Below, piece after piece: positions 52,506 through 64,000 of a DNA stretch of 64,000 nucleotides. Position 1 is the first letter of the stretch, and each line of letters starts with the position of its first letter. The translations under genes were made by a program, and so were the position numbers. Where the stretch lies: the NCBI GenBank assembly GCA_905234395.1, contig CAJOHG010000004.1, positions 1 through 64,000 on the forward strand, given 5' to 3'. Under the pieces are notes generated by a model. The model ran no database searches, was not told the DNA's origin, and worked only from the letters and a program-made list of their open reading frames with translations. Source of the stretch: an uncultured Selenomonadaceae bacterium (lineage in GTDB: Bacteria > Bacillota > Negativicutes > Selenomonadales > Selenomonadaceae).

Positions 52506-52574
52506 TCAACTAAAGACGCCTCGCGATTGAAACGATATATACACAGAGAAATTTACGGAAGGAGACAGATCATC

Positions 52575-55500
52575 ATGACGGAGTTCAGCTTCGACTTGCA
52601 ACGATTCGCCACAATCGAAGTCGCCACTCAAGCAGAATTGACAAGTGCACTAAGCACCGCTTCTGAAGGCGATGAAATTGTTTTTACGGCAAGTATTTCA
52701 AGCGGCACAGGCTTTACCGTTGACAAAGATATAACGATAGACTTCGGCAGCTACGGTTATTCCATGACATCCAACGGGCAAATAACTGTGGAGGCAGGCG
52801 CGAACGTCACTTTCGACGGCACGGGCACCATAACCAACGGAGCCATTTATAACAAAGGTGCACTCGAAATAAACGGCGTGCAACTTTCTTCAACCACTTC
52901 GCTAAGCAAAAGTTCTTCCGCCGCGACAACGCTCAATTACAACGTTTCAAGCTATGGCACTCTCGCCAACTTGATAAGTGACACTCCGGCAGACGGCACT
53001 CAATTAAATATCACTCTGACGGGAAATATTTCCGCTTCCACAAGCTACGGCGAAATCACCGTAAGCAACGGTCAATACGTCAACATTGACTTCAACGGCT
53101 ACACCTACGAGGTTACAAATTCCGGTTACGGGCTGGAAATGGAACAAGGCTCCGTCGTCAATTTATACAACGGTACCGTCACTTCAAGCGAAGACGGCAT
53201 CACTTATAACTGGGAACTCATTACAAACAGCGGCACGCTGACCTTAAGCGGCATGACCTTGCAAAACGGCATTTTCAACTTGACCAACTCCAATGTCGGC
53301 ACCGCACAGCTTGACGACACAACAATCACGCTCAAAAAAGTTTCCTATCGCAGCGGCTACTCCACCATCACCAAGAACGGCACCGTCATTTGGCGCAACA
53401 CCACAACGCAAGTTCCTACAACTTACACCGTCACGAGTACCGGCTCCGCGAAATTCACATTTAACTTGGTAACCGACGAAACTACCGAAGAGACTTCGGA
53501 AAGTATCACCGTCACGGGACTGGATACGGGCGTCACTTTCACTTCGGCAAAGGACGGCACTTCAACCGTCACTTACACCGTCACAAGCGGCGGCTTGACT
53601 GCCACACGCGACGAAGCCGTCAAAGTTTATATCGGCGTCATCAATCAGCAAACCGTTCTTTCTTTGGACGATTTGAATTTCGACAGCGGCTCACTGGTTG
53701 ACGCTCTTGTTGTCGAAGACGGTGCACTTACCGTTTCTTCAAGCACTATGGCGAATTTGAGCGCGGGCACAACCGTCCAAATGTTCTCAAGTGCCGACTT
53801 CTCAATCATTTACGGCACCATTACCAAAAATGCCGACGAGACTTTTTCGCTCGCCAAAAGTGACGATTCAACCAACGACTTGACTTCAATCACGATAAGC
53901 GACAATTTGACCGTGGACTTCAGCAGCGATTACGCGGGCATTCCCATAACAATAAACTCCACGACGTTTGCCTCAACCGGCTCCGAATCTTTCACCGTCG
54001 ACAGCAAAAATTCTTCCGTTGACGGTGCGACAAATATCAGTCTCGGAACGGGCAAACTCCTTTTGAATACGGAAAGTCAGACCGTCACGGCGGGCACATA
54101 TAAAATCTCCGGCTATTCGGACACGAATCCTTCAAATGCCGACGGTGTAACCATTGCCGTTTCAAACGGCTCCGTCACTGTCGGCGATATTGATATGGGC
54201 GAATCTTTTTATGTCGGCTCCTTAAGCTATACCAGAGCACCGCTCGGCTTGAGAACGATTGAAAAGAACGTTGAGAAACTTTATACGGGTGCGCAAACGG
54301 TTGCTTCCACAGGTGACATTGCCATTAATCTCGCCAACCTTGAAAGCAACATGCGTCCTTACATTGCGCCAAATAATTATTCCATCGTGCTCGGCGGCGA
54401 CAACACCTACAGCGCGGTCGTAGTCGATGATGACACCAATCCCACCAATAAATACGCCGAACTGCAAGTTGACGCCTCAAGCAATGAATACACTTTGACC
54501 ACGATTGACGGCGGCGATGACAAACTCTTCCGCGGCGGCGTATCAACAATTTCAATTCTCGGCGGCAATACAACTTTCAACAAAAGCCTCGTCGGCTCCA
54601 ACATGCAAATCGTCACTCGATACGGCGCAACGTTCATTGTCAAGGAAAGCGGCGATACTTTCACTGTCAACGGCTCGGCACAAGCTCCGACTGTCGACGA
54701 CGCAACCAAGATAATTCTCCTCGACGGAACTGTCACTGCCACGAGAGGTCAAACGATTATCCTCGGTGAAGACGGACTTTCGTTTAAAGTCAATGCCTCC
54801 TCAAGCGGTATGCAACTCACCTTCGACGCGGCAACTTCAACGGCGACTATCGCAGGCAACGTCAACGATCGTTTCACTCTGCCATTGGGCGGCGCGGATA
54901 AAACTTACTCAATCGCCGGCGGCACCGAAGGCATGACTTTCACTGTTGACGCGGAAGGCAACGTCACTATAAGCGACTTGACCGTAAACGACGGCGACTC
55001 ATTCTATTTCGACGGCTCAACTTATTCCGTCAAAGGCGCGGGCTTCATCAAAGACGATACTTATCTGTGGAATACAAGCGGCGTCCATTCACTCACGGGC
55101 GGGACTGTTTCACTTGCCGATGTCATTGACGACGATAATTGGGGCGTACTTAGTCTCGTCGACGCAACCAATCACTCAATTAATCTTGCCTCAAGCGTCA
55201 TACCGTCTTCAACCGATGAAGTCACGCTCGTGGGCGATGATTATTCCAAAATCTACGGCACCTTTGAACTCACGGGCGGCTCATATTTCGTCACTACCGT
55301 TGATTCAACTGCCAAGCTCAACCGCGTCTCCATAAGCAACGATCTGTCCAATTTGTCCATGGGTGCGGGCTTGACAAATGTAACCATTTGGTCACCGTTT
55401 GCCTCAATCGCCGTAACCGATGACGGCTCCGACGGTTATCAAATCACGCTCTCAAGTGATATGGCATCCGTTACCGGGCAAGAGTCTTTGACTTTGTTCC

Positions 55501-58500
55501 ACGGCACCTTGCAGGCAGATTCAAATGTCTCCGCCAGAATCGGCAACTCTATTGTCTCGGCAAGCGATTCGTCAACCATTACTCTTGTCAGCGCAACTTC
55601 TTCCGAAAATGTTTCCGTCGGCGTTGTCAATCTCGACGTGGGCGAATCTTTCGACATTGCAAACAAAGGTTCTTTCATTCAAAGCAAAATCGGCTTGATT
55701 AACGACAACTCTCAATATCTGCTCAAATCCACCGCCGGCAATATCACTCTAAGCTACCTTAACGACAATGATAATTGGGGCTCTTTGATGAGCGCATCTG
55801 CTCTTACCATTGACGCCAACACTTCAAACCTTCTGATTGTCGACGATACATCCAATCCCGTAAGCATTTACGCCGAATATACCAAGAATACCAAAACCTT
55901 AAGCAAATCCGCCGATTATGTCAAACTCGGCACCAACCTCATCAACATTGACGAAACCACAATTACAATCTCCTCAGATTTCGCGGGCACCAACGCCGTC
56001 AGCATTCACGGTGTTCAATCCGATGCTGTCTTCGTTGTCAAAGATGAAAACGTCGACTTCACCGTCAACGACAGATCCGCAGGCGCAGTCATTGGCAATG
56101 CCTCGCTTATAAGTCAAACTGCAGGACTTATATCCTTGAGAGCCAATCAGACCATAACTTCCGACGCGGGCACCTTTGTTGAGAACGTCGCAGGAAACAC
56201 TTTCTCCGTAAGCGGCTCCTCTGCCACAATCGGCGCGATAACCACCACTACCGGCTCCGAATTCACTTTTGACGGCACCACTTACGACAAATACACCGTC
56301 GGCTTGTTTAAATCTGATTCACTGCTTACCGAGGTAAGCGTTGATTCCACCGTTGACGTTGCCGATTTGGATGTCGAATCTAATTGGCGCAACACCACTT
56401 CCATTTACAGCACCAGACTTGCCATCAATTCAAGTTCACTCACGGGTTCAAGTCCGTGGGTTGTAGTCAATTCTTTGCGCACCGCTCGTTACGGCACCAT
56501 CGAAACTGTAAGCGGCGGCTACTCCATTTACAAAGACACTGCAGACAGCACTTGGGCATCCGGCAACACCATCAGCCTTGTAGGCACAAGCCTCACTTTG
56601 ACCGACGATTTCCTTAACGTCTCCATTGCGGGCAACAGAGCCGATTCAGCTTATTTTTCCGTCACCGATTCCGACGGCAATTTCACTGTAACCGACGGTT
56701 CAAACGGCGTTTCAATCAGTTCAGACGCCAAACGCATTCGCCAAACCTATGGGCTTATTCATTTGACGGAAACGAATTCCGCTCAATCAATCGTGGCGGG
56801 CACCAACTCCAATTACACGATAACTCTTGTTGAAAACGGTTCGGGGCATTCCGACGGCATCAAAGTTTTTGTGGACGGTACTCGCGCGTCAATCTCCGCT
56901 CTTGATACCGGCGACAAATTCACCTTCAGCAATTACGACGGCGAACAGACTTACGAATTGCTTTCAAACGGCAGACTTCGTCGCGACGACGGTTCCGGCA
57001 CATTGGAACTTTGGGGCGGCTCAACGCTTAGGACTACGGGCGCAACAATGACTTCCGCCAGCATTCAATCCGAAATGTGGTACGACGTGGTCACGGTGAC
57101 GGGCGGCAATGTCACAATCGATTCAACCGCCATTAACTCCATAACCGACAGCCCGTATTCGGCTTTTTATGTCGACGCAACCGACGACACCATGATTTAC
57201 GGCTCATTGTTGAGCAGAAAAGCCAAAGATCAATTCGCGCTCACTTCAGACGGTTCAACGACCGGGGCGCAGATTAATTCGGTCACCATAACTGAAGCCG
57301 CCTCAAAAGTCATTTTAACGCCCGACTTCAAAAACATTCCCGTTATCGTGGGCTCCGCAAGCTTTTATTCGACTGATTCAACGCACAATGCCATCGTTAA
57401 CTACGACGGCACAAATGTTTCCGTTGATACCGCAACGGCTCTGACTTTGGATCAGGGCACGCTCCTTCTTGGCACGGGAAATACAAATCAAACCATCACC
57501 GCCAACGGTCACACCGTCAAAGAGGAAAAAGGTACAATTTCCGTCTCCTACGACGGCACCACGGTCACAATCGACAGCTTGGACGTTGAGAACGACGCCG
57601 TCACCGTTGACAAGAGAAAATACACCTTTGACAGCGGCAACGGTTTCACCATTGAAATTGCCGGTTCGTCGACGATAATCAAAAATATTGACGATGACGA
57701 CGTGTTTACAATCGCAGGCATTTCTTATCACAAGACAAGCAGCGGTTTTGTCAAGACTTCCGACGCCACAACTTATTATCTGTGGAAAGGTTCCGACGTA
57801 ACGGAGGGCGTGACACTTGCCGATTTGACCAGCTCAAGTAATTGGGACGCCATTGCCTCTGTCACTGTCGAAGACGATGCCATTATCATCAGCTCCACTT
57901 CCACGGCGGGCATACTCGTTGATGATCCGCTGGAATTGAACAAGAGCTACGGCAAGTTGACCAAAAGCGGTTCGGGATTCATTCTTAGCGGCGACGGTCA
58001 AACCGATGCGCCCGTATCAATCACCGTTGACAATCAGACCGTTGCCATAACCGATGATTTCAGCGCGATACCGATAACGGCGATTAACGGTGCGAAAATC
58101 ACTACCGACGACGACAAGACTTTGACATTCACGACCGACAGCACAACCTTCAGCGTCAACGGCACGAGCTACAAGATGACCGACATCGGCTTGGCGACGA
58201 CTGACGGCAGGCTCTGGAGTGATCCTTCTGCGGACGATTACGTTCTGCCCAATGATGACAATTTCCGGCTGATGTTGGTGCGCGATTCAAATGACGTTCT
58301 CGATTTATCGGCGGCTTCTGCAAGCGCGATTGTCGTGGACAGCTTGAGCACTCCGACTGAACGATTGGGCACGGTTGAAGTTACGGGCGACGATTACACA
58401 GTTGATTTCGCGACGCAGGCGACCATTGCCAAAAATGATATTTACAACGTCAACGGCGCGAGTTTCATTGGCACGACGACTTTGCTTTTGGACGTGACGA

Positions 58501-61500
58501 CGAAAACTTCCACGCTCAACGAAGGCACGGCTCAAATCAACGACACAATTACCGCTGCGCCGGCAACCAATGACGAGACAATCACATTTGCGGGCGGAGA
58601 GACCGGCAACAACGGCATCACTGCGACGGCGGCTTCGGGTGCATGGGAAAGTTTAGGTTCTCTTGACGACGGAGACACTTTCACCATTGACGGCACAACT
58701 TACAAAGTTTACGGCACGGACGCATTGGCAATGCTCGATAAAAGCGGCAACGTGAGCAAGACTTACAAGGACACGTTCAGCAACGGCACGATGGCTTATT
58801 CCACGTTGACGGACGACGACAATTTTATTGACATAGTGACGTTGACTGACGGCGTATTGAGTTTGACGAATCGTTACACCTCGGCGATAGTAGTTGGCGG
58901 AACGAGTTCTGCACCCGACGTATCGACGCGCATCGCGGGACTTTCTTATTCAAGCGGCACTTACACGTTGACGGAACTTGATGACGGCGATTCAAGCGAT
59001 TTGGGCTCCGTGGCACTTACGAAGTCCGATCCGAAATTGATAACCGACATTGAAACGACGGTCACGACGACCGACAGCGCGACTTATGTTGTCAACGGCA
59101 AATACTTCCGTGGCGGCTCATTGTCAATCGCTACCGCTGAAAGCAACGCGTCCTTAACAGGCGGCACAGTCACGTTGGCATACGGCAAAAATTGGGATTC
59201 TGTCACGACGGGCGACGGCGACACCATTGCCGCGACGAAAGGCACAGTCACTGCCACGGTTGACGACTCAACAACAATAGGCGCGTTGAATGCGGGCGAC
59301 ACTTTCACCGTCAACGGCACGAGCTATATTATGACTTCAATCGGTTTGGCATTGGGCGACAAGACTAAGCTCAACATTACGGTGACCGATTCGATTGACA
59401 TTGACGATTTGAGCGGCTCGAATTGGAACAACGTGCTTGACGCGGACGACGGCGTATTGACCATCACCACGAGCACTCCCGCATATTTGGAAGAAGTTGT
59501 TGACCTAAACGACCCGACCAAAGCTTTGAAATACGGCAGATTGACCAAGACTGAAGGACGCTACATTCTCGGCTCAACTAGCGGTGCGACGCCCGAAGAC
59601 ATCAAGAGCATAATCGTTACGGGCGTGAAATTGGAATTGCCTGTTGACTGCCGGGATGCCGCGTTCACAGTGGGAGATGCCTCGTTTACAATTACTGCGC
59701 CTGCAAGCGGCACGTTAACGATAGATGCGACTTCCACGCCTTCAATCAGCGGAGTTAGTTCAATCGATTTGTCGGCGGGCGTGCTAAAAGGCAGTACCGA
59801 TTATTCCATAACAGTTGACGGCAGGAGCATTGTCGCGGACACGGGCGACATCACCGTCGGCATAAATTCTGACGGTCAAGCATATGTAGGCGCATTGAAC
59901 ACGGGCGACATCTTCACCATTGACGGCACAAAATATGAAATGACAAGCGTCGGTCTGATAAAAGGCGATTCGGGCGATAAGATTGTTTATGGGCACAACA
60001 CGACGTTTATCATTGACGACGAGATTGAGCAGAACATTTTGGCAGTCGTGGGCACAAATCTTGATCTGCGCTCTCAAACGGTCTCCGCATATGTTTATGA
60101 CAATTTAATCACGCAGAAATTGGGCGAATTGACGGTTGAAGGTTCAATGACGCTTGCGGGCGAAACTTCTGCCTCTCCTGCCGATAAAATCAAAACCATT
60201 GACATAAACAATAACACTGTCTTTGACGTGGACTTTGTGACGAAAGTCAATGCTCCGAGCGGCACGGTCACCGTTAATGACAAAGTTTATACGACGGTTG
60301 ATGATATTGTCATTGCCACGACTGCCACGACTTCCACGCTTTATGACGGCACGGTTGCATTGGACGGCGGCGACGACGTTGCGGCGAACAACGGCACTTT
60401 AATCGCGGTCAACGGCTCAATCTCTGCCACGGCGACGAACGGCGCGTTGACGACAATCACCGGGCTTGATACTGATGAAACGTTTACGTTCGGCGACATG
60501 GACTACACGCAAAGCGAAGTCGGCTTGATGAACGGCAGCGGCTCCATTTGCGAAAAGCTTACCGGCTCAACAATCAACGTGAACACTTTGACCGCCGCTT
60601 CCACGAAATGGTTGCCGGTACTAGCACCCGTGGGCACTGAACTTGACATCACGGCGCAGACTGTTGACGCGGGCATTTTCGACAAATCAACATCTCCGAC
60701 CGAAAAGCTTGCAAGTCTCACGGTAAGCGGCAGTAAGTTCACGCTCAAGGATAACGGTTCGGCAAGTGCGATTGAACTGATTGACACCGCGGCAAATTCA
60801 ACGGTTGTAGTCGATTGGGCAACGCAGATTGAAACAAGCGGCACGGTCAGCGTCAACGGCAAGAAATACGTCGGCACAACGGCATTGCTCATTGACGCGA
60901 CGGAAAATTCTTCCACGCTCAACGACGGCACAATCACTTTAAACACGACGAACAATTCTGCGGACGCGACTGATAACGGCACGTTGAAGGTTGTCAGCGG
61001 CACCATTTCTGCCACGGCTGAAGACGGCTCCTTCACGACGATTGAAGGGCTTGACGTTGGCGAAAGTTTCACGTTCGGCGGCTCCACATACAAACAGACG
61101 GCAGTCGGCTTGATGAACGGTGCTACGATTCGCGAAGATTTGACGGACACGACGCTTGACCTTGACGATTTGACATCAGCCGAATGGGCGGCGGCAATCG
61201 CTCCGAATTCCGGCACGCTTGATTTGTCGTCAGTTACGGGCGATGCGATTGTTCTCGACAGCACGACTTCTGCCGATAATGTTAAGCTTGCCTCGTTCAC
61301 CAGAGGTTCCGATTCTGTTTACACGCTCACCGGCACAAGTTCTGCTTCCGAGATCATCACGACGATTAAATTGCCCGCGAATACTTCCGCGACTGTCGAC
61401 TTTGCGGCGAAGATTAACGTTCCGACCGGCACCGCGACAATCAACGGCGAAAAATATAATGCCGCGACGACTTTAACGCTTGAAAATGACGGCACGACTT

Positions 61501-64000
61501 CCACATTGACAACGGGCACTGTTACATTGACGAACGGCGAACACGTCAACACGACAAGATACGGTTCTGTCAGTGCGATAACTGAAACTGAAGGCGACGG
61601 AATCAGCGTGAAGGCAACTTCAACAACGGTGACGATAGGCGATTTGAATTCGGGCGACACGTTCACCGTAGGCGAAACAACCTATGAAGTTAAAGACGCC
61701 GCGCTTTACAAAGTCGACTCTTCGGGCAACGAGCTGATGTATATCGGTGATGTTGATGTCATTGGCAAGGGCACGATAACCGTTGCGGAAATTCTTGACG
61801 GCGATTGGGGCGGCTTCCTTGAAATTGACGGTGCGTTGTCAATCACTGATTCGACGCTTGAAAACAATGAGACCGTGCGCGTTGTCAGCACCGACCACAG
61901 CAAAGTTTACGGCACGCTTGTTAAAGTTGACGACGCATATACATTGACGGCACCGAGCAGTAAAAATGCCGACTTGACCTCAATCGAAGTGGTTGGCGTT
62001 GAAATTGAAATTGAGCCGGATTATGCCTCCGTTCCGATAACCGCAAATGACACGACAATCACCGACGTGGCATTGAACTCGAACACGAAGACTTACACCG
62101 TTGACGCGACGAATAACACACCGACGCTAAGCGACAACGTAAAAAGTCTCACACTCACTGCAGGAACGATTCAAGCGGCGACTAAGCAACAGGTCACTGC
62201 AGGCGATAACGTTCTCACTCCGACGACAATCAGCGGCACTGCGACGATAAGCCTTACTCAAATCAGCGGGCTTTCAATCGGCGACAAACTCACGCTAAAC
62301 GGCGACACTTACACCTACATCAACGACGACCTCGGAATGTACAATTCGACTGACACTGCGCTTGTCACGAGCGGCTTTGACAGCGGAACGTTGAGTTTCG
62401 ACTTTGAAGAGACTGCCGCCATTGCACCGACATCGGGCACGCTGAACATTTCATCGATCACGAGTAATGCGGTTGTTTTGAACAGCACATCAACTCCGAC
62501 GACGCAACTTGCCTCGCTCACTGCCAACGGCACGACTTACACATTGACGAATGACAATTCTGCCGCCGATTCAATTTCCACGATAAAAATTGCCGCAGGT
62601 TCCGCGTTGACGGTCGATTTTGCCGCGCAGGTCACATCACCGATTGGCACGGTCACTGTCAACGGTCAATCTTATGTTGGCACGACGGCTTTAACTCTCG
62701 ACAATGACGGCACGACTTCCACGTTGACAACGGGCACGGTTACGGTTGCAAACGGTTCTGAAGTCACGGCGACGGTTGACGGCACAATTTCTGCGACTGC
62801 GGGCGACGGCTTGACGGTCAAAGCGACTGACGGCTCCGCGACAATCAGCGGCATGAACGACGGCGACGCTTTCACCGTGCAGGATAAATCGTTTACGGTC
62901 AATGCGGTTGCTCCCATGAATGAGGACGGACAACTTTGGCGAGGCACATATTCAAGCGGCTTGACGGTCACCGAACTTTTGAGCGGCGATAATTGGACAG
63001 ACATCAGCGCACTTAGCGACGGACAAATTTACGTCAACACGGTCACGCTTTCCGACGGCGATGAATTCCTTCTTGTCGACGACGTGACTAGCCCGACGAA
63101 GACTTACGGCAAACTTTCTCGCGCGGACGGCAAATACACGTTGGAAGTTGAATCAACCGACACTGCGCCCGATTCAATCAAAGTCGAGGGTGTTGCCATT
63201 GACATTTACAACGACTTCGCGGACGTGCCAATCACCACCGTAAACGACGACGGCTCCACGACGCTTTTCAACGTCCAAACTTCCACGACGAAAGATTATT
63301 TCACGGTCACTGCAACGGGCGACATTCCGATTGTCGACAACGCAAGCGAAATTGACATCACAAGCGGCAACATCACGCCCGGCACCAATAATTCAAAAGA
63401 AATTCCCGTCAAGGCGACGGAAGATTCAACTTCCGCGCAAGTCACCGTCGGCAACGGCACGCACTCCATTGCCGATAAATCTGTCACCATTGCCTCCGAT
63501 AACGATACCGTAACATTTGATTTGACGAACGGAGCTGTCAGCGACATTGAAGGACTTGATTCGGGCGCGACTGTCACCGTTGACGGCACGACTTACACAT
63601 CTCTTGCCGATGATTCGACACTTCACTACACCGACGCCGACGGTTGGTATTTTGACAATTACGCACTCGACGCTTACACGGTCACCGTTGACAAGAGCGG
63701 CAACGTTAAAGTCGATGCGGGCGTCAAATTCACGGACATTCTCTCAAGCGGCAGGACACTTGACGACGACGGCTCAATCAAATTCGTTTTAGATCCTTAC
63801 GAAGCGAAAGTTACCGTCATAAACAACGGCTCCGCTGAACTCAACATCAGCGACGCGGACGGTAATTCACTCGTCGAAAATCTCGGCAAGGTCACGGGCG
63901 GCATCAAATTCGACGACGACGCGATAACCATTGGCGAATTTAAAAACGTTCAAGGTGCGACGTTCACTTTAAATGACGGTCAAACGCTCACTGAAGGCAC
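52575..64000 (+). CDS. Giant repetitive protein with N-terminal FDLQRFA motif, 3' end outside the window
   Basis: ATG 52575 behind GGAAGGAGA; the same frame appears open for 3808 codons and leaves the window without a stop. It begins MTEFSFDLQRFATIEVA with no Sec signal. Residues of about 15-300 look like a right-handed beta-helix (short strands alternating with turns such as GAGANVTFDGTGTITNG-type steps). The remainder is rich in Thr, Ser, Asp, Gly, Asn and Val with almost no Cys. From about 58.4 kb a unit of roughly 190-210 residues recurs, each with LxxGDxFTVxGTxY (starts at 58662, 59286, 59895, 60465, 61050, 61644, 62271, 62853, 63555) and a TVxVNGxxYVGTTALTLD step. Probably a secreted or surface-attached adhesin-like protein; the export route is unknown. 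Its codon use is richer in C and lacks the AAAATTTT words common elsewhere. Confidence 0.85.
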   Translation, partial: MTEFSFDLQRFATIEVATQAELTSALSTASEGDEIVFTASISSGTGFTVDKDITIDFGSYGYSMTSNGQITVEAGANVTFDGTGTITNGAIYNKGALEINGVQLSSTTSLSKSSSAATTLNYNVSSYGTLANLISDTPADGTQLNITLTGNISASTSYGEITVSNGQYVNIDFNGYTYEVTNSGYGLEMEQGSVVNLYNGTVTSSEDGITYNWELITNSGTLTLSGMTLQNGIFNLTNSNVGTAQLDDTTITLKKVSYRSGYSTITKNGTVIWRNTTTQVPTTYTVTSTGSAKFTFNLVTDETTEETSESITVTGLDTGVTFTSAKDGTSTVTYTVTSGGLTATRDEAVKVYIGVINQQTVLSLDDLNFDSGSLVDALVVEDGALTVSSSTMANLSAGTTVQMFSSADFSIIYGTITKNADETFSLAKSDDSTNDLTSITISDNLTVDFSSDYAGIPITINSTTFASTGSESFTVDSKNSSVDGATNISLGTGKLLLNTESQTVTAGTYKISGYSDTNPSNADGVTIAVSNGSVTVGDIDMGESFYVGSLSYTRAPLGLRTIEKNVEKLYTGAQTVASTGDIAINLANLESNMRPYIAPNNYSIVLGGDNTYSAVVVDDDTNPTNKYAELQVDASSNEYTLTTIDGGDDKLFRGGVSTISILGGNTTFNKSLVGSNMQIVTRYGATFIVKESGDTFTVNGSAQAPTVDDATKIILLDGTVTATRGQTIILGEDGLSFKVNASSSGMQLTFDAATSTATIAGNVNDRFTLPLGGADKTYSIAGGTEGMTFTVDAEGNVTISDLTVNDGDSFYFDGSTYSVKGAGFIKDDTYLWNTSGVHSLTGGTVSLADVIDDDNWGVLSLVDATNHSINLASSVIPSSTDEVTLVGDDYSKIYGTFELTGGSYFVTTVDSTAKLNRVSISNDLSNLSMGAGLTNVTIWSPFASIAVTDDGSDGYQITLSSDMASVTGQESLTLFHGTLQADSNVSARIGNSIVSASDSSTITLVSATSSENVSVGVVNLDVGESFDIANKGSFIQSKIGLINDNSQYLLKSTAGNITLSYLNDNDNWGSLMSASALTIDANTSNLLIVDDTSNPVSIYAEYTKNTKTLSKSADYVKLGTNLINIDETTITISSDFAGTNAVSIHGVQSDAVFVVKDENVDFTVNDRSAGAVIGNASLISQTAGLISLRANQTITSDAGTFVENVAGNTFSVSGSSATIGAITTTTGSEFTFDGTTYDKYTVGLFKSDSLLTEVSVDSTVDVADLDVESNWRNTTSIYSTRLAINSSSLTGSSPWVVVNSLRTARYGTIETVSGGYSIYKDTADSTWASGNTISLVGTSLTLTDDFLNVSIAGNRADSAYFSVTDSDGNFTVTDGSNGVSISSDAKRIRQTYGLIHLTETNSAQSIVAGTNSNYTITLVENGSGHSDGIKVFVDGTRASISALDTGDKFTFSNYDGEQTYELLSNGRLRRDDGSGTLELWGGSTLRTTGATMTSASIQSEMWYDVVTVTGGNVTIDSTAINSITDSPYSAFYVDATDDTMIYGSLLSRKAKDQFALTSDGSTTGAQINSVTITEAASKVILTPDFKNIPVIVGSASFYSTDSTHNAIVNYDGTNVSVDTATALTLDQGTLLLGTGNTNQTITANGHTVKEEKGTISVSYDGTTVTIDSLDVENDAVTVDKRKYTFDSGNGFTIEIAGSSTIIKNIDDDDVFTIAGISYHKTSSGFVKTSDATTYYLWKGSDVTEGVTLADLTSSSNWDAIASVTVEDDAIIISSTSTAGILVDDPLELNKSYGKLTKSGSGFILSGDGQTDAPVSITVDNQTVAITDDFSAIPITAINGAKITTDDDKTLTFTTDSTTFSVNGTSYKMTDIGLATTDGRLWSDPSADDYVLPNDDNFRLMLVRDSNDVLDLSAASASAIVVDSLSTPTERLGTVEVTGDDYTVDFATQATIAKNDIYNVNGASFIGTTTLLLDVTTKTSTLNEGTAQINDTITAAPATNDETITFAGGETGNNGITATAASGAWESLGSLDDGDTFTIDGTTYKVYGTDALAMLDKSGNVSKTYKDTFSNGTMAYSTLTDDDNFIDIVTLTDGVLSLTNRYTSAIVVGGTSSAPDVSTRIAGLSYSSGTYTLTELDDGDSSDLGSVALTKSDPKLITDIETTVTTTDSATYVVNGKYFRGGSLSIATAESNASLTGGTVTLAYGKNWDSVTTGDGDTIAATKGTVTATVDDSTTIGALNAGDTFTVNGTSYIMTSIGLALGDKTKLNITVTDSIDIDDLSGSNWNNVLDADDGVLTITTSTPAYLEEVVDLNDPTKALKYGRLTKTEGRYILGSTSGATPEDIKSIIVTGVKLELPVDCRDAAFTVGDASFTITAPASGTLTIDATSTPSISGVSSIDLSAGVLKGSTDYSITVDGRSIVADTGDITVGINSDGQAYVGALNTGDIFTIDGTKYEMTSVGLIKGDSGDKIVYGHNTTFIIDDEIEQNILAVVGTNLDLRSQTVSAYVYDNLITQKLGELTVEGSMTLAGETSASPADKIKTIDINNNTVFDVDFVTKVNAPSGTVTVNDKVYTTVDDIVIATTATTSTLYDGTVALDGGDDVAANNGTLIAVNGSISATATNGALTTITGLDTDETFTFGDMDYTQSEVGLMNGSGSICEKLTGSTINVNTLTAASTKWLPVLAPVGTELDITAQTVDAGIFDKSTSPTEKLASLTVSGSKFTLKDNGSASAIELIDTAANSTVVVDWATQIETSGTVSVNGKKYVGTTALLIDATENSSTLNDGTITLNTTNNSADATDNGTLKVVSGTISATAEDGSFTTIEGLDVGESFTFGGSTYKQTAVGLMNGATIREDLTDTTLDLDDLTSAEWAAAIAPNSGTLDLSSVTGDAIVLDSTTSADNVKLASFTRGSDSVYTLTGTSSASEIITTIKLPANTSATVDFAAKINVPTGTATINGEKYNAATTLTLENDGTTSTLTTGTVTLTNGEHVNTTRYGSVSAITETEGDGISVKATSTTVTIGDLNSGDTFTVGETTYEVKDAALYKVDSSGNELMYIGDVDVIGKGTITVAEILDGDWGGFLEIDGALSITDSTLENNETVRVVSTDHSKVYGTLVKVDDAYTLTAPSSKNADLTSIEVVGVEIEIEPDYASVPITANDTTITDVALNSNTKTYTVDATNNTPTLSDNVKSLTLTAGTIQAATKQQVTAGDNVLTPTTISGTATISLTQISGLSIGDKLTLNGDTYTYINDDLGMYNSTDTALVTSGFDSGTLSFDFEETAAIAPTSGTLNISSITSNAVVLNSTSTPTTQLASLTANGTTYTLTNDNSAADSISTIKIAAGSALTVDFAAQVTSPIGTVTVNGQSYVGTTALTLDNDGTTSTLTTGTVTVANGSEVTATVDGTISATAGDGLTVKATDGSATISGMNDGDAFTVQDKSFTVNAVAPMNEDGQLWRGTYSSGLTVTELLSGDNWTDISALSDGQIYVNTVTLSDGDEFLLVDDVTSPTKTYGKLSRADGKYTLEVESTDTAPDSIKVEGVAIDIYNDFADVPITTVNDDGSTTLFNVQTSTTKDYFTVTATGDIPIVDNASEIDITSGNITPGTNNSKEIPVKATEDSTSAQVTVGNGTHSIADKSVTIASDNDTVTFDLTNGAVSDIEGLDSGATVTVDGTTYTSLADDSTLHYTDADGWYFDNYALDAYTVTVDKSGNVKVDAGVKFTDILSSGRTLDDDGSIKFVLDPYEAKVTVINNGSAELNISDADGNSLVENLGKVTGGIKFDDDAITIGEFKNVQGATFTLNDGQTLTEG

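Follow-up and report, generated by a model that had tools for sequence, protein, structure and literature searches.

The window analysed here, positions 1 to 64,000 (64,000 nucleotides) of contig CAJOHG010000004.1 (C4) from an uncultured Selenomonadaceae bacterium (GCA_905234395.1), ends within a giant open reading frame (ORF) whose product opens with the motif FDLQRFA. Ribosomal protein L27 of the same genome opens with this motif as well, next to a gene for the L27-processing protease Prp, and judged by sequence comparison the start of the giant is a recognition leader of Prp. The features of the locus are given below, with a slash marking a scissile bond or, in leaderless proteins, the end of the start Met.

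52559..52564, + strand: Shine-Dalgarno-like AAGGAG, 10 nt 5' of the ATG, as read from the sequence.
52575..64000, + strand: giant ORF, 3808 codons inside the window, beginning with the ATG at 52575.
52575..52607, + strand: predicted Prp leader MTEFSFDLQRF (residues 1-11), with the same F-x-F-D-L-Q-R-F/A as the genome's own L27.
Between 52607 and 52608, + strand: predicted scissile bond F11/A12, placed where conservation ends in homologs (P1 Phe) and by the rule of Staphylococcus aureus Prp (PMC9405229, PMC5744158).
52608..53519, + strand: N-terminal region (residues 12-315), variable among giants; the 2 homologs with a visible N-terminus are also leader-bearing.
53520..58661, + strand: diverged repeat units of ~200 residues each (residues 316-2029), found as profile matches with i-E 4e-9 to 5e-16.
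58662..63554, + strand: eight well-phased repeat units (residues 2030-3660), which match the profile made from themselves.
63555..64000, + strand: start of a different C-terminal segment, 33% identical to residues 4-244 of the fragment C53.

The preliminary description of this DNA had reported more than 3800 uninterrupted and still open codons, the lack of a Sec signal and a giant surface-type repeat protein, and all three hold. The downstream sequence that it called for extends the frame by 70 codons to the contig end at 64208, which is reached before the C-terminus; the frame is still open there at 3878 amino acids (aa). The protein has at least 3878 residues, its own C-terminus lying beyond the assembled contig. 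The N-terminus (MTEFSFDLQRFATIEVATQ...) is devoid of a hydrophobic Sec-type segment. The available 3878 residues are rich in Thr (15.8%), Ser (11.2%), Asp (9.3%) and Gly, with a net charge of -310 and only 3 Cys.

FDLQRFA is encoded at five sites in the 2.83 Mb genome, against about 0.005 expected by chance, and the reversed control pattern gives 0 sites in the same genome. The first site is the window giant, where the motif spans residues 6-12. The others belong to a complete protein of 2944 aa with an alpha/beta-hydrolase domain and RTX repeats (contig C37), an RTX protein of 721 aa (C34), a protein of about 510 aa with RTX repeats (C40) and ribosomal protein L27, the N-terminus of which reads MTFQFDLQRFAHKKG (longer stretch, MTFQFDLQRFAHKKGVSSTRNGRDS). 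The Prp gene (PF04327, 1.6e-18) directly precedes the L27 gene. Alignment of its product to the S. aureus enzyme (SaPrp, 4peo) reveals that G21, H22, G29, D31, C34 and S38 are all kept; in SaPrp the active site is formed by His, Asp and Cys, and Gly21, Gly29 and Ser38 are essential (PMC9405229). SaPrp cuts L27 between F and A at MLKLNLQFF/ASKK (PMC9405229, PMC5744158) and cuts the capsid and scaffold leaders of phage 80alpha at F/A as well (PMC5744158). It contacts its peptide at P1 Phe, P3 Gln, P4 Leu, P5 Asn/Asp and a hydrophobic P6 (PMC9405229). The window giant presents each of these residues (FDLQRF) within its first about 20 positions, where the sisters also have them, followed by a small residue, Ala, at P1', and a catalytically complete Prp is encoded beside rpmA in the same genome. 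Because the same motif opens the genome's own L27, and the adjoining Prp gene retains the catalytic residues, the motif is best read as an L27-type Prp leader.

The giant encoded on C37 (L011:7408-16242) carries its Hydrolase_4 domain in mid-protein, flanked by repeat regions on one side and by a C-terminal part with RTX repeats on the other. Its homologs were gathered with residues 13-199 alone as query, leaving out the motif to avoid selection for it, and 22 of the 25 with a visible N-terminus have F[DN][LI]QRF close after the start codon. Alignment of 16 leader-bearing sequences reveals no variation at F4, F6, D7, Q9, R10 and F11 and almost none at L8, with FDLQRF as the most conserved six-column window (0.98 vs 0.49 overall). 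Positions 2, 3, 5 and 12 vary, and conservation stops at the P1 Phe, that is, at the predicted scissile bond. The conserved set (P8 F, P6 F, P5 D, P4 L, P3 Q and P1 F) coincides with the SaPrp-peptide contacts at P1, P3, P4, P5 and P6. Leader codons are synonymously varied at every position, with five Leu and five Arg codons in use, while the amino acids stay fixed among homologs down to about 30-40% identity, which argues for selection on the peptide. For the window protein a motif-free query returned two N-terminal homologs, giants of about 7100-7200 aa which are both leader-bearing, one of them with the form FDIQRFA.

Leaderless homologs begin at the predicted mature N-terminus (M/AITLSTG, M/DTVTINKG, M/ETTMTLTEG and M/AITIPTG). 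The first three of these starts are preceded by a Shine-Dalgarno-like sequence; two leaderless homologs also have alternative upstream ATGs, and their starts are inferred ones. The same pattern is known from L27, which starts M/A in species without the leader (PMC9405229). Shorter RTX proteins agree with this boundary, as the distance to a shared anchor is 12 both from P1' of the leader form (4 of 5 proteins) and from residue 2 of the leaderless form (6 of 9).

Across the family, FDLQRFA sites are present in 87 of 189 genomes, the highest number, 9, being reached by a genome from the window's genus, while the control pattern gives zero matches across the 189. We read 40 sites of the genus with their flanks: 28 open long RTX or repeat proteins, 4 open L27, 2 open FlhB and 6 lie in short or broken frames. 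The earlier association of the motif with further long proteins from Negativicutes is thus borne out. The 28 long proteins range from 319 to over 5745 aa, and 22 of them have RTX nonapeptides by a simple pattern. In the other genera the form is mostly FDLQLFA, at about two sites per genome, and those read are L27 and FlhB. Within the family the motif was also found on phage proteins, namely scaffold and major tail proteins. The named relatives are uncultured Selenomonadaceae or Selenomonadales, several labelled as coming from ruminant gut samples. In six leader-bearing genes of the genus (L084, L096, L104, L118, L121 and L123) a frameshift or truncation ends the frame after 20-280 codons; the repeats may have been misassembled there, or the genes may truly vary between on and off states.

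What is observed, namely the motif, which is identical with the leader of L27, a protein-level conservation that ends at P1, the boundary between leader and body, and the genes for Prp and type I export, leads us to propose that Prp probably removes the leader from the window giant in the cytoplasm, after which the giant would leave by type I export with its C-terminus first. The cytoplasmic cysteine protease would bind F-x-F-D-L-Q-R-F and cut after Phe11, so that the 11-residue leader MTEFSFDLQRF would be lost and the mature giant would start at Ala12. The genome's only type I system, HlyB-HlyD-HlyB, would then carry the trimmed chain out with the C-terminus leading, as it appears to do for the RTX sisters. 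The cleavage, its timing, its benefit and the export of the giant are all predicted steps. As to purpose, the simplest idea is drawn from other Prp clients, which enter large assemblies: the leader may help very long chains to fold, or to pass quality control, before they are exported.

Several observations weigh against this proposal. The P1' residue is often not Ala in the giants: among 22 leader-bearing homologs it is Ala in 12, Asp in 5, Ser in 3, Thr in 1 and Val in 1, whereas for SaPrp only small residues are described as accepted at P1' (PMC9405229), and given this mixture some giants may be bound yet uncut. Strict co-variation of L27 and giants at P2 was looked for and is absent, since the leader-bearing giants of genera g22, g29 and g30 have FDLQRFA and their L27 has FDLQLFA; P2 also differs among the known Prp substrates, being F in L27 and scaffold and H in capsid (PMC9405229). 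The known 3878 residues of the window giant are free of GGxGxD motifs, and its C-terminus, with any RTX block, lies beyond the contig end. Finally, the scaffold of phage 80alpha needs its leader, but the cleavage is dispensable, and the authors suggest a link to a chaperone (PMC5744158).

This last precedent also speaks for the main rival explanation, in which the leader is a docking tag that Prp or another reader binds as a chaperone or holding factor, cutting being incidental, or absent in many giants. A P1' that seems unconstrained in the giants (Asp, Val, Thr) would fit such a tag, and a tandem Prp whose second domain has no catalytic His would suit binding without cutting. However, a mere tag would not lead one to expect that the first residues of leaderless homologs and RTX sisters coincide exactly with the mature N-terminus as predicted, and the P1 Phe is invariant; we regard the docking tag as unlikely.

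The tandem Prp occurs in 12 genomes of the genus (L196-L207; genomes G075, G079, G091, G100, G053, G114, G111, G078, G067, G088, G110 and G084) as one continuous frame of about 250 aa that encodes two Prp domains. In the first of these the GH...C active site is kept, and in the second the catalytic His is missing (EE/ER and similar); the protein resembles an active Prp domain joined to a pseudo-protease. Its presence shows no correlation with the number of FDLQRFA sites (p = 0.20).

Cytoplasmic trimming of the leader would precede export, and the genus offers one candidate route for the latter. Exactly one type I HlyD (TIGR01843) scores above cut-off in each of 31 genus genomes examined, and in the three loci read it is flanked by two HlyB-type ATPases (TIGR01846, above cut-off): L194:4831-10634 in the own genome (contig C13), L209:3007-8948 and L210:3287-9126. 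The search for co-occurring secretion genes that the preliminary description had recommended has thus found a candidate system. The order HlyB-HlyD-HlyB resembles the B-D-E gene order (rtxBDE) of MARTX-type systems. No TolC gene lies beside hlyD in the three loci, a genome-wide search for TolC not having been made. About 27 RTX frames are present in the own genome, most of them sharing the C-terminal tail FxVNxSTYKISGSKLVKK and a minority bearing the leader. RTX repeats are present in the FDLQRFA sister proteins P0002, P0003 and P0004. Since RTX repeats end the sister giants and one HlyD is found in all 31 genomes, type I export of the window giant is likely. The RTX frames lie on contigs C2, C6, C8, C11, C14, C15, C19, C25, C34, C43, C55, C56, C73 and others (L257-L276), many of them in tandem clusters, and an RTX protein on C19 has the leader variant FDLQRFD.

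An export of the giant by another route, for example two-partner or other type V, would make RTX repeats and type I secretion irrelevant to it. Such a route is allowed by the missing C-terminus of the window giant, and type V passengers, too, can have repeats that lack RTX motifs. However, the Sec signal is absent from the N-terminus, and two relatives with a visible end speak for a different C-terminus: L092, a complete homolog of 4097 aa, is 30% identical to the window giant along about 3400 residues, and both it and the paralog C53 finish with a similar short tail, like other leader-bearing giants, and not with an evident beta-barrel. Export by another route appears improbable, somewhat more so than the docking tag.

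The preliminary description had speculated that FDLQRFA may mark proteins for export or sorting by a system not yet described, and had named cytoplasmic carriers of the motif as the finding that would speak against it. Recurrence on many giant surface-type proteins fits a tag of this kind, but the motif is not confined to them: it opens cytosolic L27, FlhB, and phage scaffold and tail proteins. Moreover, about two dozen RTX proteins of the own genome have the common C-terminal tail and dispense with the motif, which indicates that the leader is an add-on and not an export signal, and a type I ABC/HlyD set is present. An export tag is therefore very improbable. Equally improbable is it that the conserved stretch acts as DNA or RNA (a translation initiation element or a recombination cassette), or that it is only a passive relic, left by gene capture involving rpmA or a phage. 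Its place at the extreme 5' end of genes and its look of a detachable module might suggest as much, but synonymous shuffling of codons around fixed amino acids is expected of neither.

The body of the window giant contains about 17 repeat units of roughly 200 residues each. A profile built from the eight well-phased units (residues 2030-3660) recovers nine further independent units, partial or full, at residues 316-2028. The repeats begin near 53520 and not at 58662, as had been proposed. The reported spacings of 570-702 nt are correct, and of the nine reported repeat starts the eight between 58662 and 63554 match the profile; the ninth, at 63555, opens a different segment that scores -8.3 against it. 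A fold prediction for one repeat, which had also been recommended, gave an all-beta model (mean pLDDT 76.7), but a structure search with it returned no PDB match above background, and a second phasing of the repeat gave a poor model (pLDDT 49). Of the Pfam matches on the giant (Phage_attach, PTSIIA_gutA) no stretch passes alone, and they look like artefacts of repeat composition.

The segment at 63555 is related to C53, a C-terminal fragment of 1422 aa with a few RTX-like motifs, residues 4-244 of which align to residues 3634-3878 of the window giant at 33%. C53 was considered as the continuation of the contig and set aside: it overlaps the window protein by homology and so looks like a paralog. 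The genes upstream of the giant are metabolic (IspD, Nudix, YgbB, HD, amidohydrolase and OAD beta), with no secretion genes among them.

Comparison with the known Prp system (PF04327, MEROPS C108) and the long L27 of Firmicutes reveals the same leader grammar, with P1 Phe, P3 Gln, P4 Leu, P5 Asn/Asp and a hydrophobic P6. Apart from the mixed P1' across homologs, the giant has the testable features of a Prp substrate and would work like a Prp client. In contrast to S. aureus L27, however, the client would be a giant secreted-type repeat protein and not a ribosomal protein, its P1' is less restricted across the giants, and a further Phe is conserved at P8. The capsid and scaffold of phage 80alpha are likewise non-ribosomal clients with an L27-type leader cut by the host Prp (PMC5744158), but these are phage assembly proteins whereas the giants are cellular proteins of exported type. 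The N-terminal extension of FlhB has been proposed as another Prp client (Wall et al., reviewed in PMC9405229). It has the same motif in the same family (FDLQ[LR]FAG.KTEEPT), but FlhB is a membrane export-gate protein and its cleavage is only proposed. FlhB starts with FDLQ[LR]FA before KTEEPT in many Selenomonadaceae genera (L026-L039, L124-L146 and others), which broadens that proposal.

MARTX-type and LapA-like type I RTX giants are likewise acidic repeat giants; here the RTX nonapeptides are found in the sisters, and a single HlyD stands with two HlyB-type ATPases. LapA-like proteins are cut by the periplasmic protease LapG, and we know of no cytoplasmic N-terminal leader of Prp type described for them or for MARTX-type proteins. 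In the searchable literature no paper contained FDLQRFA; searches for related Prp motifs, and for L27 or Prp together with type I secretion or surface proteins, returned only the Prp review or unrelated papers, and we found none linking Prp leaders to secreted or surface proteins, subscription literature being outside the search.

To our knowledge, it is an open question what bacteria gain from an L27 whose leader is later removed. The known Prp clients are L27 and a few phage proteins, and our analysis suggests that the giants are a candidate new substrate class for this known protease. Dozens of new candidate substrates, together with natural controls that lack the leader and begin at the cut site, make the specificity and the purpose of Prp testable. 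If true, type I substrates would acquire an N-terminal maturation step in the cytoplasm, and inhibition of Prp, which has been discussed as an antibiotic target (PMC9405229), would have wider consequences. It is quite possible, although we would not call it probable, that a whole class of type I secreted giants is under the control of an essential ribosome-maturation protease, with Prp removing or reading an L27-type leader on each, so that ribosome assembly, flagellar export through FlhB and the biogenesis of giant surface proteins would share one cytoplasmic enzyme and could compete for it.
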